From assembly GCF_029814175.1 (NCBI RefSeq), contig NZ_CP122312.1, positions 1,240,001 to 1,304,000 on the forward strand: a DNA stretch of 64,000 nucleotides, in the 5' to 3' direction. The position numbers were made by a program, and so were the translations under genes. The DNA comes from Halospeciosus flavus. Lineage in GTDB: Archaea; Halobacteriota; Halobacteria; Halobacteriales; Halobacteriaceae. Positions within the stretch are counted from its first letter, which is position 1; the number at the start of each line of letters is the position of its first letter. The notes below the pieces were generated by a model. That model ran no database searches. It had not been told where the DNA came from and was given only the letters and a program-made list of their open reading frames with translations. Below are positions 12,440 to 51,445 of the stretch, one piece after another.

Positions 12440-15139
12440 TCAGCGGCGTAGCAGGTACCACGCACAGAACGCCACGAGCGCGATACCGACGAGTGCGACC
12501 ACGAGACGGATGACCTTCATCGTCAGTCCGCCGAGGGCGCGGACCTCTATCGTGCCCGCGTTCGTCCCTTCGACCGCGACACGATAGGTTCCGCTTTCCT
12601 CGACGCGATGGGTGAACGTGATCGTCCGCGACTCGCCTGCGGGGACGGTCACGTTCTTCGTCGCGACCGAGTCATTCGCGACCGAGAGCGTCGCGTGGAA
12701 CGTCCCACTGGCGCTTCCGCTATTGTGGACCGTCGCGGTGACGTTGAACGGCGTCCCTGTCCGAACCTGCTGGTCGGGATCCTCGATCGTCGCGCTCGTC
12801 ACGGTGAAGTTCGGCTGTGGCGCCCCGACCGCGTAGTAGGAGAGGCCGGCCGCACTCGCACCGAGGACGTAGCGGTCCTCCGTCTCGTTGACGAGTCGAG
12901 TGTCGAGTTTCTGCCACGCGCCGTCGTGGTGGCGGTAGAGGGCCACCTCGGAGATGTCGGCGACGACCTGCGATTTCGAGACGCTCACACGGAAAGTCGC
13001 CGCGGAGACGTTCTCCTCGGCGATGGTGTGAGAGAGGTCGTAGTAGACGAGTGCCTGCGTCGAGTGGTTCGCGGCGAGCGGCGCGACCCCGTCGGGGACG
13101 GACGCGGAGGTCTGTGCCGTCAGCGTGAACGAACCGCTCCGGGTCGGCGTGAGTCCGATCTCGCTGATGTAGGCGCCGGTGGCGTCGGTCGTCTCGGTGG
13201 CGGGGAGGTCGATAGCGACGACGCGACCCGCGGCGACGTCGGTGACGTCGGCGACGACGACACCGGGGTCTGGCCGCGTGAGTGTGACGTTGGCGTCGCT
13301 CGCCGGGACACCGTGGCCGTCGTCGGACTGGACCACAGTGATACGCCGGGTCGCCGCGTCGACGTTGCCCGCGGCGTCGGTCACGCGAAGCGAGACGGTG
13401 TAGTTCCCCGGTGTGGAGTAGGTGTGCGTCGCCGTCGCGCCCGTCGTGACCGCGCCGTCACCGAAGGACCAGTGGTAGCGGACGAGTCGGGTGTTGTCGG
13501 TCGACGCCTCGGCGTCGAAGCCGACGACCGACCCGACGGTGACGGTACGGTTCGGACCGACGGCGGCCGATGGCTTCTGACGGTCGAGCGTCAGCCGGTC
13601 GGAGGCGTCCGTGTCGGTGTTCCCGTAGCGGTTGCTCGCTCGTACCTCGACGCGGTACGTACCGGAGTTTCCAGCGTCCCGACCGACCGTCGCGGTGGCG
13701 GCGTAGACGTTGTCTCCGGTCGGTTCGAGAGTCACGCGCCCCGCACCGAAGCGCGAGAGGTCGGCCGTCACGGAGACGTTCTGCGACCCGGTGACGACGG
13801 CGGTGACGCGGATTTCGTCGCCGACGCCGACGACGTCGTCCCCGTCGGCGGCCGCGAGCGTCGCGTCGGAGACGGTCGGAGCGGGCGTCTCGACGGTCGT
13901 GGAGGCAGTCTGCCCGTCTGCGCCGTCGTTTCCGCCCGCGTCGGCTGCCGTGCGGAGCGTCGCGGTGTAGGACCCGTCCGCGTCGACCGTCAGCGAAGCC
14001 GTGTAGGTGTACGGGCCGGTCCCTTCGACGGAGAAGTCACTCTCGGTGAGCGTGCGGGAAGCGGGACCGTCGACCGTCACCTCGACGTTCGCGAGCTGTT
14101 CGCTACTCTCGAAGGAGACACTGAGCTGTCGACCTTCGGGGTTCTGCAGCGAGAAGTTCGAGATGGCCGGTGCCGGGGGCTCCGCGCCGGCTGCAGCGCC
14201 GACCGCACCGCTCGCGGCGATGGAACTGCCGTCCGCGGAGAGGACGCCGGTCGATCCGCCGAGCGTCGCGTACGCGAGGTTGCCGTCTTTGTTCACGTGG
14301 ACGGCTTCGAGGCGGGCGTCGCCGACCACGTCACCCGCGCCGACCGGTCCCTTCGCCGCGGCCCCGTAGTTCGGGGTGAGAACCGTCTTCTCCCCGCTCG
14401 CACCGACGAGCGCGAGGTTGTTACTGCCGTCGACGACCGGGACGCGGGGCGTGCCGTCACCGTCGAAATCGGCCGGGGCACCGACGCCGAGACCGTTGTT
14501 CGACCCGATGGAGGAGTAGCCGGTCGTGTGGACCGCGCCGTCGTAGAACTTGATGCCCGAGGAACTCCCGACGAAGACGAGGTCGCGGTCACCGTCGGCG
14601 TCGAAGTCGGTCACACCGAGTGCGGCCTTCGCACCGGTGTCGACGACCGTGTGCGCGGAACCGCCGACTTCGACGCGGTTGACGGTGCTCCCGTCGCCCC
14701 CGACGTAGAGGACGGCAGGCGTGCCGTCGCCGTCCCAGTCACCGACGCCGAGTTTCGTCTTCGACGCCTTCGCCGTTCCCTGAACGAGCGTCCGGGTCGA
14801 CCCGTCGAGGCCGACGATAGCGACGTCGCCACCGCTCGTCACGTAGGGGACGTCGAGTCGACCGTCGCCGTCGAGGTCGGCCATCGGACCGACGACGGTC
14901 GCCGAGACGCCGAACGAGGTCGTCGAACCGTCCTCGCCGAGGACGTGGACGGTCCCGTCGGGCGAGGCGTAGACCGCGGCGGGGTCGAGACGGCCGTCCG
15001 CGGCGGTGGTGGCAGTGGCGGCGCCAGCACCGACGGAAATCCCACCCGCCAGGGACGCGGTGAGGAGCGTCACGAGGAGGAACAACGTGCGAGCAGTACG
15101 AGCTGGAGCGTCGATGGCAGTTCTCTCTGACGGAGCCAT
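12440..15139 (-). CDS. large secreted/surface protein with FG-GAP, PKD and CARDB-like domains
   Basis: About 899 residues, with the start at the ATG at 15139; an upstream TTG is less likely. A signal segment (ARTLFLLVTLLTASLAGG) leads into four calcium-binding-like FG-GAP/VCBS repeats: DLDGDGRLD, DWDGDGTP, DFDADGDRD and DFDGDGTPR, roughly residues 85-250. Immunoglobulin-like segments follow, then a PKD domain (YHWSFGDGAVTTGATATHTY, about 545-625), a PGF-pre-PGF-like region and a CARDB-like domain (about 790-865). It ends with a transmembrane anchor (VVALVGIALVAFCAWYLL) and RR. It is probably exported and membrane-anchored, with adhesive or structural roles. The DNA is GC-typical, and there is no partner operon. 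Confidence 0.8.
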   Translation of the reverse strand: MAPSERTAIDAPARTARTLFLLVTLLTASLAGGISVGAGAATATTAADGRLDPAAVYASPDGTVHVLGEDGSTTSFGVSATVVGPMADLDGDGRLDVPYVTSGGDVAIVGLDGSTRTLVQGTAKASKTKLGVGDWDGDGTPAVLYVGGDGSTVNRVEVGGSAHTVVDTGAKAALGVTDFDADGDRDLVFVGSSSGIKFYDGAVHTTGYSSIGSNNGLGVGAPADFDGDGTPRVPVVDGSNNLALVGASGEKTVLTPNYGAAAKGPVGAGDVVGDARLEAVHVNKDGNLAYATLGGSTGVLSADGSSIAASGAVGAAAGAEPPAPAISNFSLQNPEGRQLSVSFESSEQLANVEVTVDGPASRTLTESDFSVEGTGPYTYTASLTVDADGSYTATLRTAADAGGNDGADGQTASTTVETPAPTVSDATLAAADGDDVVGVGDEIRVTAVVTGSQNVSVTADLSRFGAGRVTLEPTGDNVYAATATVGRDAGNSGTYRVEVRASNRYGNTDTDASDRLTLDRQKPSAAVGPNRTVTVGSVVGFDAEASTDNTRLVRYHWSFGDGAVTTGATATHTYSTPGNYTVSLRVTDAAGNVDAATRRITVVQSDDGHGVPASDANVTLTRPDPGVVVADVTDVAAGRVVAIDLPATETTDATGAYISEIGLTPTRSGSFTLTAQTSASVPDGVAPLAANHSTQALVYYDLSHTIAEENVSAATFRVSVSKSQVVADISEVALYRHHDGAWQKLDTRLVNETEDRYVLGASAAGLSYYAVGAPQPNFTVTSATIEDPDQQVRTGTPFNVTATVHNSGSASGTFHATLSVANDSVATKNVTVPAGESRTITFTHRVEESGTYRVAVEGTNAGTIEVRALGGLTMKVIRLVVALVGIALVAFCAWYLLRR

Positions 15140-15336: not shown

Positions 15337-15368
15337 ACAGTTGAACAGTTGTACAATCGTTCAACTGT
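15337..15368. promoter_or_regulatory. perfect 10-bp inverted repeat (operator-like)
   Basis: ACAGTTGAAC (15337-15346) and GTTCAACTGT (15359-15368) form perfect arms around a 12-base spacer that itself contains the palindrome TTGTACAA. It lies just after the arginase stop and about 200 bases before the surface-protein start. A near-identical motif sits at 51150-51178. It is probably a binding site for a dimeric regulator; a terminator hairpin is the alternative. Confidence 0.5.
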
Positions 15369-15379
15369 TCGCGGGTCGG

Positions 15380-16300
15380 CTACAGCACGCGCTTGCCCAG
15401 CGCACTCGCGGCGAGTTCGACGGCGAGTTCGGCGGTCTTGTTGCGCTCGTCGAGGACCGGGTTCACCTCGACGAACTCCAGCGAGCGGAGGACGTCCTCG
15501 GCGTCGTCGCGTTCGGCGACCGCTTCGAGGGCGGTGTGGGCCTCGCGGTAGGTCGCGCCGCCGCGGACCGGCGTCCCGACGCCCGGTGCCTCGTTCGGTT
15601 CGAGCCAGTCCATGTCGAAGCTCACGTGAATCTGGTCGACGCCGGCGGTGGCGATGTCGAGGGCCTCCTCGACGACTTCGCTGGTGCCGCGCTCGTCGAT
15701 GTCGGACATGGTGAACGCGGTCATGTCGCTGTCGCGGATGTCCTCTTTCTCACGTTCGTCGAGCGAGCGCAGGCCCACGAGGACGACGTTCGACTCGCTG
15801 ACGCGGTTGCCCGAGGCCCACGGTTCGTCGCCGAACGCGCCGTAGCCGAGAGCCGCCGCGAGCGGCATCCCGTGGACGTTGCCACTCGGCGACGTCTCGG
15901 GTGTGTTGAAGTCGCCGTGGGCGTCGAACCAGATGGCGCCGACATCCTCGTCGCGGCCCGATCCGTTGAGCGACCCAATGGCGATGGAGTGGTCCCCGCC
16001 GAGGACGAGCGGGAACGAGCCCGACGTGATGGTTTCGGCGATTTCGTCGGCGAGCGCCGTACAGACTTCGCGGGTCTCCTTGAGGAACTTCGCGGACCCC
16101 GCAGTCGGCTGGACCTCCTCCGGGTCGCGCTCCTCGGCACGAGGGACGGTGAGGTCGCCGGCGTCCGTACAGGTGAGGCCCGTCCGTTCGAGTTCGTCGG
16201 CGAGTCCGGCGTAGCGAATCGCCGACGGACCCATGTCGACGCCACGGCGGTTCGCGCCGTAGTCGGACGGTGCACCGATGATGCGGACCTCTCGATTCAT
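15380..16300 (-). CDS. rocF: arginase / ureohydrolase family enzyme
   Basis: A 306-residue binuclear-manganese ureohydrolase, probably arginase (arginine to ornithine plus urea). The start is MNREVRIIGAPSDYGANRRGVDMGPSAIRYAG, the classic arginase N-terminus that positions the substrate loop. Metal ligands are seen in LGGDHSIAIGS (His), IWFDAHGDFNTPETS (DAHxD) and VSFDMDWLEPNEAPG (SxDxDxxEP instead of the commoner DP). It lies 51 bases after the carbamate kinase gene on the same strand, so the two may be co-transcribed for arginine or ornithine turnover. Arginase fits better than agmatinase or formimidoylglutamase because of the N-terminal loop, but specificity is inferred. Confidence 0.88.
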   Translation of the reverse strand: MNREVRIIGAPSDYGANRRGVDMGPSAIRYAGLADELERTGLTCTDAGDLTVPRAEERDPEEVQPTAGSAKFLKETREVCTALADEIAETITSGSFPLVLGGDHSIAIGSLNGSGRDEDVGAIWFDAHGDFNTPETSPSGNVHGMPLAAALGYGAFGDEPWASGNRVSESNVVLVGLRSLDEREKEDIRDSDMTAFTMSDIDERGTSEVVEEALDIATAGVDQIHVSFDMDWLEPNEAPGVGTPVRGGATYREAHTALEAVAERDDAEDVLRSLEFVEVNPVLDERNKTAELAVELAASALGKRVL

Positions 16301-24255: not shown

Positions 24256-25452
24256 CTACTCGGTGGGGGTCGCGGCGCTGTCACAGGCGCTCCCATCCCG
24301 TAGGATGTCATCGCCCGCCGGTTTCAGCGGCAGGCTCTCACCCCACGGGTCGTGGCGGTCAGCGATGTTGACCGCCGCGTTGATGTCTGCGTGATACTCC
24401 GACACCCAACACTCCTCGTTCTGACACCGAAACTCATCGCCGTTTCGATACCCGATGTGGCCGCACTCGTGGCACGTCTGCGATGTGTAGGACGGTTCGA
24501 CGTATTCGACCGGGATGCCAAACTCTCGCGCTTTGTCCTCGATTCGCTCCTGCAAGCGAGCGAACGCCCATGCGTGGAGGCGTCGGTTCATCCACTCCCC
24601 GTAATCGAGGTCTTCGCGGATGTACGAGAGTTCTTCCAGCACGACCACTGGCTTCTCGAACTCGCGGGCGTACTCGACGGCCCGCCGAGACGCCTTCTCG
24701 ATGATGTCTGTGAGTGCGTTCTGGTAGTGATCGAACCGTTCGTCAATCCGCCACTGGGCGGCGTCACGCTCTTGGAGTCGCTTGAGTGTCGTGTACATCT
24801 CTTTGCGGAGGTGGCGAGCGCGGCCACCGTTGATGAGCAGTGGGTCGGTCGGAGTGCCCTGCTCGCAGGCACAGCCCGCGAGCAGGTGTGCTTCACCAAT
24901 GTCGAAGCCGACTGGTGTTACATCGTCGTCTGTCGGTTCGTAGTCCGGTTCTTCGACCGGGAACTCGACGGTGACATGAATCGTCCACGACGTGCGGTGG
25001 CGTTGCAGGCGGAGTTGACCTGCCGACGCCTCACCGTCCACGAGGTCGTGCCACAGCTCTTCTTGAGCGGGGTTGATACGGAGTGGTATCCAGGAGTTCG
25101 TCCCGCGACCGGACTGTGGCACCCACCACGTGAACTCGTAGTCCCGTTCCGGTGAGTGGTCAAACTCGGCGGCTTGGTTGGTGACCCGAACCGGGTGGTC
25201 GTCGTCCAACTCCTGTGCATCGTAGGTGCCGTGCAGTTGTGGAACGTAGTTACACAGGGCCGCCTTCGCCTGATACGGCAGGTCGTAGGGCGTCACCACG
25301 TCGCTGGTGGCGGTCATCGTCTCGCACCCGGCCTCGAACGCCTCATGGAGTCCTGCCCGGTAGGTGTCGAGCAGGTCACACAGTTTGCGCTCTTTGTGAG
25401 CTGTCGGCGGGGCGAGCGTAGCCTCCAACGTTTTCGTGGTTGTCGCGGTCAT
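24256..25452 (-). CDS. tnpB: RNA-guided endonuclease TnpB (IS605 OrfB)
   Basis: A 398-residue TnpB, ancestor-type relative of Cas12, which cuts DNA guided by omega-RNA and helps the element persist after excision. The RuvC residues look intact: Asp in VGFDIGEAH (about residue 184), Glu in VVVLEELSY (about 272), and Asp in SEYHADINAAVNIA near the C-terminus. The zinc ribbon has CHECG and CQNEEC. It begins one base after the tnpA stop, so the two are co-transcribed. No frameshift is seen, so nuclease activity is plausible even though the host element's left end is broken. Confidence 0.93.
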   Translation of the reverse strand: MTATTTKTLEATLAPPTAHKERKLCDLLDTYRAGLHEAFEAGCETMTATSDVVTPYDLPYQAKAALCNYVPQLHGTYDAQELDDDHPVRVTNQAAEFDHSPERDYEFTWWVPQSGRGTNSWIPLRINPAQEELWHDLVDGEASAGQLRLQRHRTSWTIHVTVEFPVEEPDYEPTDDDVTPVGFDIGEAHLLAGCACEQGTPTDPLLINGGRARHLRKEMYTTLKRLQERDAAQWRIDERFDHYQNALTDIIEKASRRAVEYAREFEKPVVVLEELSYIREDLDYGEWMNRRLHAWAFARLQERIEDKAREFGIPVEYVEPSYTSQTCHECGHIGYRNGDEFRCQNEECWVSEYHADINAAVNIADRHDPWGESLPLKPAGDDILRDGSACDSAATPTE

Positions 25453-25453
25453 G

Positions 25454-25846
25454 CTACTGCTTTTCCACGTAGTCCATCAGCACGTTGATGCTCACTTGAC
25501 CGGTCGTGGCGAGGAAGTATCCCGGTTGCCAGAACGCATCTTCGAGCGTCTGTTTCACCTCCGGGTACTCCTGCCGAATCCGACGGGATGTGACGCCCTT
25601 GAGCGAGTTGATGAACTTCGTGAGGTCGGTGGTGGGTTTGGTCGTGAACAGGATGTGAACGTGGTCGGTGCCGCCGTCTACGTTCTTGATGTCGGCCTCG
25701 AAGTCGTCTGCAATCTCGTGAGCGACTTCAGCCACGCGCTCCAGCCGCTCATCGGTGAGGATGTCGGCGCGGTACTTTGTGACGGTCACAAAGTGGTATT
25801 GGAGCGCGTAGACCGTGTGCGACCCGGATTGCAGGTGACACTCCAT
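25454..25846 (-). CDS. tnpA: IS200/IS605 transposase TnpA (Y1 HUH)
   Basis: A 130-residue Y1 single-strand transposase. The HUH metal motif is HVHILFTTKP near residue 63. The catalytic tyrosine is probably in QPGYFLATTGQ near residue 108, and the C-terminal helix VLMDYVEKQ follows. It opens with the family's HTVYALQYHFVTVTKYR strand. Length is typical. It acts as a dimer on hairpins at the element's ends. It appears intact, but the left-end hairpin it would need is interrupted by the ISH3-like element. Confidence 0.92.
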   Translation of the reverse strand: MECHLQSGSHTVYALQYHFVTVTKYRADILTDERLERVAEVAHEIADDFEADIKNVDGGTDHVHILFTTKPTTDLTKFINSLKGVTSRRIRQEYPEVKQTLEDAFWQPGYFLATTGQVSINVLMDYVEKQ

Positions 25847-50869: not shown

Positions 50870-51145
50870 ATGACCGAGTCAACCGCCGAAGCCGACGGCA
50901 TCACCGCCCGCTACTACGAGACCGACGAGGAGCGCGTCCTGGAGTTCGAACGCGACGGGAAGACTGCCGCCGTCGCGCAGAACGTCGAGGGGTACGCCAT
51001 GCTGAAGGTCCGACCCACCGCCGACGGCGACGAACTCGAACGCTACTACGGCTTCGACATGGCGCTCGACCACGCCGCCGAACTCCTCGGCGTCGACCCG
51101 GCCGACCTGCCGGTTCCCGCCCCCGCCGAAGACATGGGTATGTAG
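50870..51145 (+). CDS. conserved haloarchaeal small protein (DUF7111-like)
   Basis: A 91-residue acidic soluble protein from ATG 50870. It has a compact mixed fold (ITARYYETDEERVLEFERDGKTAAVAQNVEGYAMLKVRPTADGDELERYYGFDMALDHAAELLG), no cysteine, and ends in a Pro-rich acidic tail (DLPVPAPAEDMGM). The family appears conserved in haloarchaea but its function is unknown. It stands alone and is followed immediately by a palindrome shared with another locus. The DUF number is from memory. Confidence 0.75.
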   Translation: MTESTAEADGITARYYETDEERVLEFERDGKTAAVAQNVEGYAMLKVRPTADGDELERYYGFDMALDHAAELLGVDPADLPVPAPAEDMGM

Positions 51146-51149
51146 TCAG

Positions 51150-51178
51150 GTCAACGATTGAACAACTGTTCAACTGAC
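51150..51178. promoter_or_regulatory. palindrome matching the site at 15337
   Basis: TTGAAC-AACT-GTTCAA (51158-51173) is a perfect 6-base inverted repeat, with outer GTCA/TGAC at 51150-51153 and 51175-51178. On the minus strand it reads CAGTTGAACAGTTGTTCAATCGTT. The 15337 site on the plus strand reads CAGTTGAACAGTTGTACAATCGTT, one mismatch in 24. It lies about 90 bases before the small zinc protein gene. Confidence 0.5.
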
Positions 51179-51265: not shown

Positions 51266-51445
51266 ATGAGCGTCATCGAGAAAGTCAAAGACCTGTTCGT
51301 CGACGAGGAAAAGATCGTCTGGCAGTGTGACGAGTGCGACGAAGAGTTCGAGACGTTCGTCAAAGAGACGGAACCGACTCCCGACTCGGCGACCTGTGAG
51401 CACTGCGGGAGCACTTCGACGAGTGTGCGGCGGCGTGCGGGCTAA
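51266..51445 (+). CDS. small zinc-ribbon protein, unknown function
   Basis: A 59-residue acidic protein from ATG 51266. Two CxxC pairs, WQCDECDEEFETF and ATCEHCGSTSTSV, form a zinc ribbon around an amphipathic segment. Small zinc fingers of this type are frequent in haloarchaea and several affect motility, biofilm or gene expression; no specific role can be read here. The shared palindrome upstream is a candidate regulatory site. Confidence 0.72.
   Translation: MSVIEKVKDLFVDEEKIVWQCDECDEEFETFVKETEPTPDSATCEHCGSTSTSVRRRAG

Follow-up and report, generated by a model that had tools for sequence, protein, structure and literature searches.

A palindromic element in about 25 intergenic places of the Halospeciosus flavus main chromosome, mostly near gene 3' ends

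A palindrome that recurs almost letter for letter at two places on one archaeal contig raises the question of whether the two loci are controlled together or whether the sequence belongs to something more widespread. The window analysed here is the whole stretch of 64,000 nucleotides at C1:1240001-1304000, where C1 is the 3.18-Mb main contig of a 3.56-Mb genome in three contigs. The sequence CAGTTGAACAGTTGTACAATCGTT at 15338-15361 (+) and its partner at 51153-51176 (-) differ at one of 24 positions and lie on opposite strands, as the first-pass annotation had described, and at both the arginase and the DUF7111 sites the copy was found just behind a stop codon and upstream of a further gene. 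That annotation also took the match to be too long for chance, and chance was indeed rejected: the core TTGAACANYTGTWCAA, with up to two mismatches, gave six overlapping matches in the window, confined to the two sites, where 0.09 were expected in shuffled windows, and control patterns gave no matches in the genome as a whole. Its further proposal was a regulon or structural site joining a surface-protein locus to a small zinc-protein locus. The features concerned are as follows, with copies numbered among the 23 close copies in the genome and scored with a position matrix (PWM).

12440..15073, minus strand: gene for a PKD/CARDB/FG-GAP-type surface protein, next to copy 9 on the side away from the arginase gene (start uncertain, perhaps as far out as ~15139)
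15337..15368, plus strand: copy 9 of 23, A-CAGTTGAAC-AG-TTGTACAA-TC-GTTCAACTG-T, PWM score 62.1
15338..15346, plus strand: left arm of copy 9, CAGTTGAAC
15349..15356, no strand: palindromic centre of copy 9, TTGTACAA
15359..15367, plus strand: right arm of copy 9, GTTCAACTG
15380..16300, minus strand: arginase-family gene (PF00491), with 14 bp between its stop and the 26-base core of copy 9
50870..51145, plus strand: DUF7111 gene (PF23423), immediately followed by copy 10
51146..51177, minus strand: copy 10 of 23, degenerate, with one arm altered and the centre TTGTTCAA, PWM score 46.4
51266..51445, plus strand: gene for a small zinc-ribbon protein downstream of copy 10 (PF09723, E 2.9e-6, below the curated cut-off)

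Over the whole genome, the 17-base core with one mismatch allowed gave 50 overlapping matches on C1, against 0 for the reversed control, and a 26-base pattern collapsed the core matches to 23 places, all on C1 and none on the small contigs C2 and C3 (P 0.07). The palindrome is therefore not restricted to the two window sites, a restriction that the first-pass annotation had named as speaking against its proposal. Searching with the arms only, and allowing three mismatches, gave 26 places; two additional ones, at C1:574751 and C1:2569088, are intergenic by the gene calls, retain the A/T flanks, and have the variant centre TTCACGA in common with the copy at 637448. These were accepted as diverged copies, bringing the family to about 25 members, and a 30-mer match with three mismatches at C1:848759 was excluded because its centre does not fit. 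The consensus of the aligned copies is W-CAGTTGAACAGTTGTACAATCGTTCAACTG-W, that is, W-CAGTTGAAC-AG-TTGTACAA-TC-GTTCAACTG-W: a 30-base palindrome made imperfect by its inner AG/TC mismatch, and about 32 bp long with the A/T flanks. Both nine-base arms are exact in 15 of the 23 close copies, copy 10 being among the more degenerate by PWM. The close copies score between 44 and 63 and the two diverged ones between 16 and 23; shifted registers aside, the best other site scores only -4.5 in 464 kb of the host genome and -2.2 in 400 kb of a relative, and this sharp gap means that there is no tail of weaker sites. The motif holds 59 bits over 32 positions, whereas about 18 bits are needed to specify 23 sites. 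In the aligned copies, no conserved sequence was found beyond about 32 bp, and the edges fade through W into a weak Y or R bias. Copies are spread uniformly along C1 (KS P 0.94), with a nearest spacing of 19.9 kb and no pairs or clusters, and 17 face one way and six the other (P 0.035).

Several other observations on this genome were made in passing. A repeat scan found a tandem array of at least six 42-bp units (TACGTTTCGTCTGTCTCAACAGGGACGTCAGGAGTGAGAGAG) at C1 ~701787-702191 (L129 1787-2191), and three near-identical regions (L124, L130, and L139) resemble ribosomal RNA operons by eye. A perfect palindrome of 26 bp, GGGAATGGCGCGGCCGCGCCATTCCC, occurs at L132 7800 and L143 11797, on C1 and C2; as the two places share flanks, it probably belongs to a gene or transposon present in duplicate. 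A TIGR02928 search of the genome gave 21 matches, mostly Orc1/Cdc6 genes, over C1 and C2; about a dozen genes of this type is a high number and suggests several origins or integrated replicons. In the window itself, 24256-25846 (minus strand) holds a Y1_Tnp gene (IS200-type TnpA, PF01797) and, beside it, a 398-amino-acid ORF that looks like its putative TnpB partner; the element does not occur in this locus.

The copies are placed with a bias towards gene 3' ends and convergent gaps. Each of the 23 is intergenic; convergent genes flank 12 of them, and the other 11 occupy tandem gaps (eight and three in the two orders). The reference was the 93,466 positions that a 26-base element could take between genes in 464 kb of the host genome: of these, convergent gaps account for 10.9% (P 1.2e-6) and divergent gaps, which hold none of the copies, for 24.3% (P 0.0017). 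A stop codon is no more than 25 bp away from 17 copies, against 7.9% of placements (P 1e-14), and a start codon no more than 40 bp away from one, against 15.5%. These P values rest on gene calls from an ad hoc codon-usage model trained on the host genome and treat the copies as independent; an earlier, cruder caller, since replaced, had given 7 + 1 convergent copies, one divergent copy, and two copies in weakly supported ORFs. The stop-proximity count is conservative because the real neighbour of copy L048 (Pfam Polyketide_cyc) fell just under the caller's threshold. At four of the 23 copies, the TGA within the element's GTTGAAC is itself the called stop codon. One such gene is MptE, whose product of 232 residues falls within the 224-265 range of the 51 loci compared, out of 55 retrieved; no truncation is therefore evident.

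The genes beside the copies have no common theme. A Pfam scan of all 46 immediate neighbours, and of two second neighbours, identified arginase, peroxidase, CDC48, a GINS51-type protein, an Lhr-type helicase, MptE, ribosomal protein L15e, an EF-1 guanine-nucleotide-exchange domain protein, histidinol dehydrogenase, SurE, creatininase, transporters, and families of unknown function, five neighbours having no Pfam family; neither a common pathway nor a transposase was found by Pfam among the 46. One copy, at C1:3115939 (region C1:3115558-3115966, L069 4617-5028), ends 3 bp short of the ATG that starts an ArsR/HTH_20 regulator, and no other copy is as close as 40 bp to a start codon; a second copy is found 53 bp ahead of an HTH_10 gene.

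The element was sought in other genomes at several levels, and was found in none. The 26-base pattern with two mismatches matched only the host among 40 genomes, and a looser pattern matched only the host among 391 of its class (the 390 others being without it); the core pattern was likewise found in one of 59 genomes and a variant in one of 27, in each case the host's own. The exact 24-base core was absent from GTDB r220 (84,980 species by the description of the collection) and from IMG/VR, both searches in which the host's own or very near records may be omitted. The same-family comparison comprised 25 other genomes, and none of these, nor any other listed comparison genome, belongs to the host genus; the first-pass annotation had looked to conservation in related strains, and at the level covered there was none. 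The DUF2070 locus of 22 relatives contained no copy, and only this absence is concluded because frame-finding misplaced several of the stops. In 400 kb sampled from a same-family relative (G010), no arm was repeated three or more times, a weak search because a family of this density yields only about three copies per 400 kb. A plasmid or phage origin was also considered and dropped, as the 32-mer gave one plasmid match (E 9) and eight phage matches (best E 0.9), all with partial cover and taken as chance.

How the copies came to be so alike can be approached from their differences. Of the 21 copies whose inner dinucleotides could be scored (two with other letters were dropped), 17 carry AG on one side and GA on the other, an asymmetry for which free pairing of half-sites gives a mean of 10.3 (P 0.003). 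Because so many share this asymmetry, and because some variants are common to several copies, we infer that the copies descend by copying from one asymmetric master. The excess of information in the motif, for its part, speaks for copying or for several recognisers. Immediately outside the 30-mer, all 46 flanking bases are A or T (24 T and 22 A), where the local AT content is 32%, and in three of 25 copies the central G-C pair is swapped to C-G with the palindrome preserved; together these suggest either protein recognition or an insertion target preference. The two statistics thus diverge, the conserved asymmetry favouring copying and the strict A/T flanks favouring protein recognition. On these patterns, the element is probably recognised by a putative sequence-specific protein, and we infer that such a protein, whether a mobilising factor or a host DNA-binding protein, still recognises the copies.

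In form, the element resembles a bacterial REP. According to PMC3733652, REPs are palindromes of 20-40 bp that mostly follow genes and occupy gaps where the ORFs are convergent or unidirectional; they carry GTAG or CGTC tags, and their ends may supply stop codons. PMC2817692 adds that they are associated with RAYT transposases, which have inverted REP copies on their two sides, and that they usually number more than 100. The element shares with them a short imperfect palindrome in many intergenic copies downstream of genes, some supplying the stop. It is unlike them in its archaeal host, its number of only about 25, and its lack of pairs or clusters; it carries neither tag, being flanked by A/T and then a weak pyrimidine or purine bias, and no RAYT flanked by inverted copies was found at the four 3-kb Y1_Tnp loci of the host genome. 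Without tag and RAYT, it is not a formal REP. The literature searched yielded no account of REPs from halophilic archaea, and a search for the core letters returned only unrelated papers. The likeliest reading, and one about as likely as not to be correct, is that this is a REP-like dispersed palindromic element occupying about 25 non-promoter intergenic places in one haloarchaeal lineage. The fading motif edges count against it, since they suggest the logo of a protein-bound site more than an abrupt edge of insertion. A repeat of about 32 bp would then have spread over the main chromosome, mostly to gene 3' ends, amplified from the asymmetric master. There it could serve as a weak 3' hairpin, or a protein bound to it could form a roadblock where transcripts converge.

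Three other readings fare worse. The two-locus regulon was rejected on copy number, gene placement, and the lack of a gene theme: 12 of the 23 copies are convergent and so cannot be promoters, the 46 neighbours are unrelated, and 59 bits with no continuum of weaker sites leaves it unsupported; of the original proposal, a structural or protein-bound site may still hold. Extending the idea to operators of one transcription factor would account for the palindromic symmetry and for the copies before the ArsR/HTH_20 and HTH_10 genes, but the scarcity of copies near starts, the unrelated genes, and the lack of weaker sites make it very improbable. The HTH protein beside C1:3115939 is in any case no special candidate for an autoregulated binder, since relatives at up to 47% identity occur in 25 of the 26 family genomes (the host's own included), the other relatives being without the element; that single copy might nonetheless serve as an operator. 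Bidirectional terminators or mRNA 3'-end hairpins would fit the placement at 3' ends, and RNA folding of five sequence types among the 23 copies gave -11 to -18 kcal/mol and z of -3.1 to -5.4 for the four intact variants, although copy 10 in the window reached only z -0.65, with many shuffles as good. In Haloferax volcanii, according to PMC7237163, intergenic termination goes with T stretches and only some hairpins, one tested hairpin terminating 59%. Here, in contrast, none of the 23 copies has five consecutive T in the 40 bp to either side, which rejects a conventional T-run terminator; a purely terminating role was what the first-pass annotation had raised against its own reading. No Rfam family was matched in the window. 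Structure would suffice for a terminator hairpin, 30 identical bases not being required, and we regard this reading as improbable. Terminal remnants of IS200/IS605-type transposons are more doubtful still, and hardly to be expected. PMC3119063 describes the PATEs of Haloquadratum walsbyi as IS605 derivatives with near-terminal palindromes that can shrink to 52-bp remnants, and its SMRs as ~80-110 bp with terminal repeats; like these, the element is a dispersed haloarchaeal repeat free of a transposase, some of them with palindromes, and the host has four Y1_Tnp matches. However, the 32-bp element resembles neither, nothing is conserved past it, and no flanking gene is a transposase. Within the scope of the four 3-kb Y1_Tnp loci, the palindromes differ, no element is present (best score -18.8), and an IS end or PATE remnant was rejected.

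The main rival to the REP-like reading is a set of fixed sites for a lineage-specific chromosome-organising or insulator protein, of the parS, matS, Noc, or SegB kind, sparing promoters. Such a protein would suit the long two-fold symmetric motif with its stacked 16-bp sub-palindromes, the invariant A/T flanks, and the uniform distribution over the 3.18-Mb contig with none on the small ones. Against it, the information content far exceeds what recognition needs, the copies do not cluster, and no candidate protein was found; moreover, chromosome-organising systems of this kind are usually conserved, and no searched relative has the sites. Archaeal SegB sites and bacterial parS-type sites are also palindromic and scattered along the chromosome beside unrelated genes, but the SegB sites, according to PMC12284271, are 13 bp, mostly intragenic, and clustered near segAB and the origins, unlike the ~32-bp, intergenic, and uniformly spread element. 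We therefore consider fixed organiser sites possible but rather unlikely. The REP-like and organiser readings can also be combined: a lineage-specific element, together with a putative binding protein, would mark gene 3' ends and insulate converging units or organise the chromosome, having been spread by a non-RAYT enzyme. Taken as a whole, this fuller account is a tentative one and unlikely to hold in every part.

To our knowledge, REP-type palindromes have been described mainly from bacteria. A compact, near-invariant archaeal palindrome at gene ends, with no recognisable transposase, would offer a clean case for finding out what copies such elements, and it may also allow one to ask whether they serve the cell in keeping adjacent transcription units apart or in organising the chromosome.
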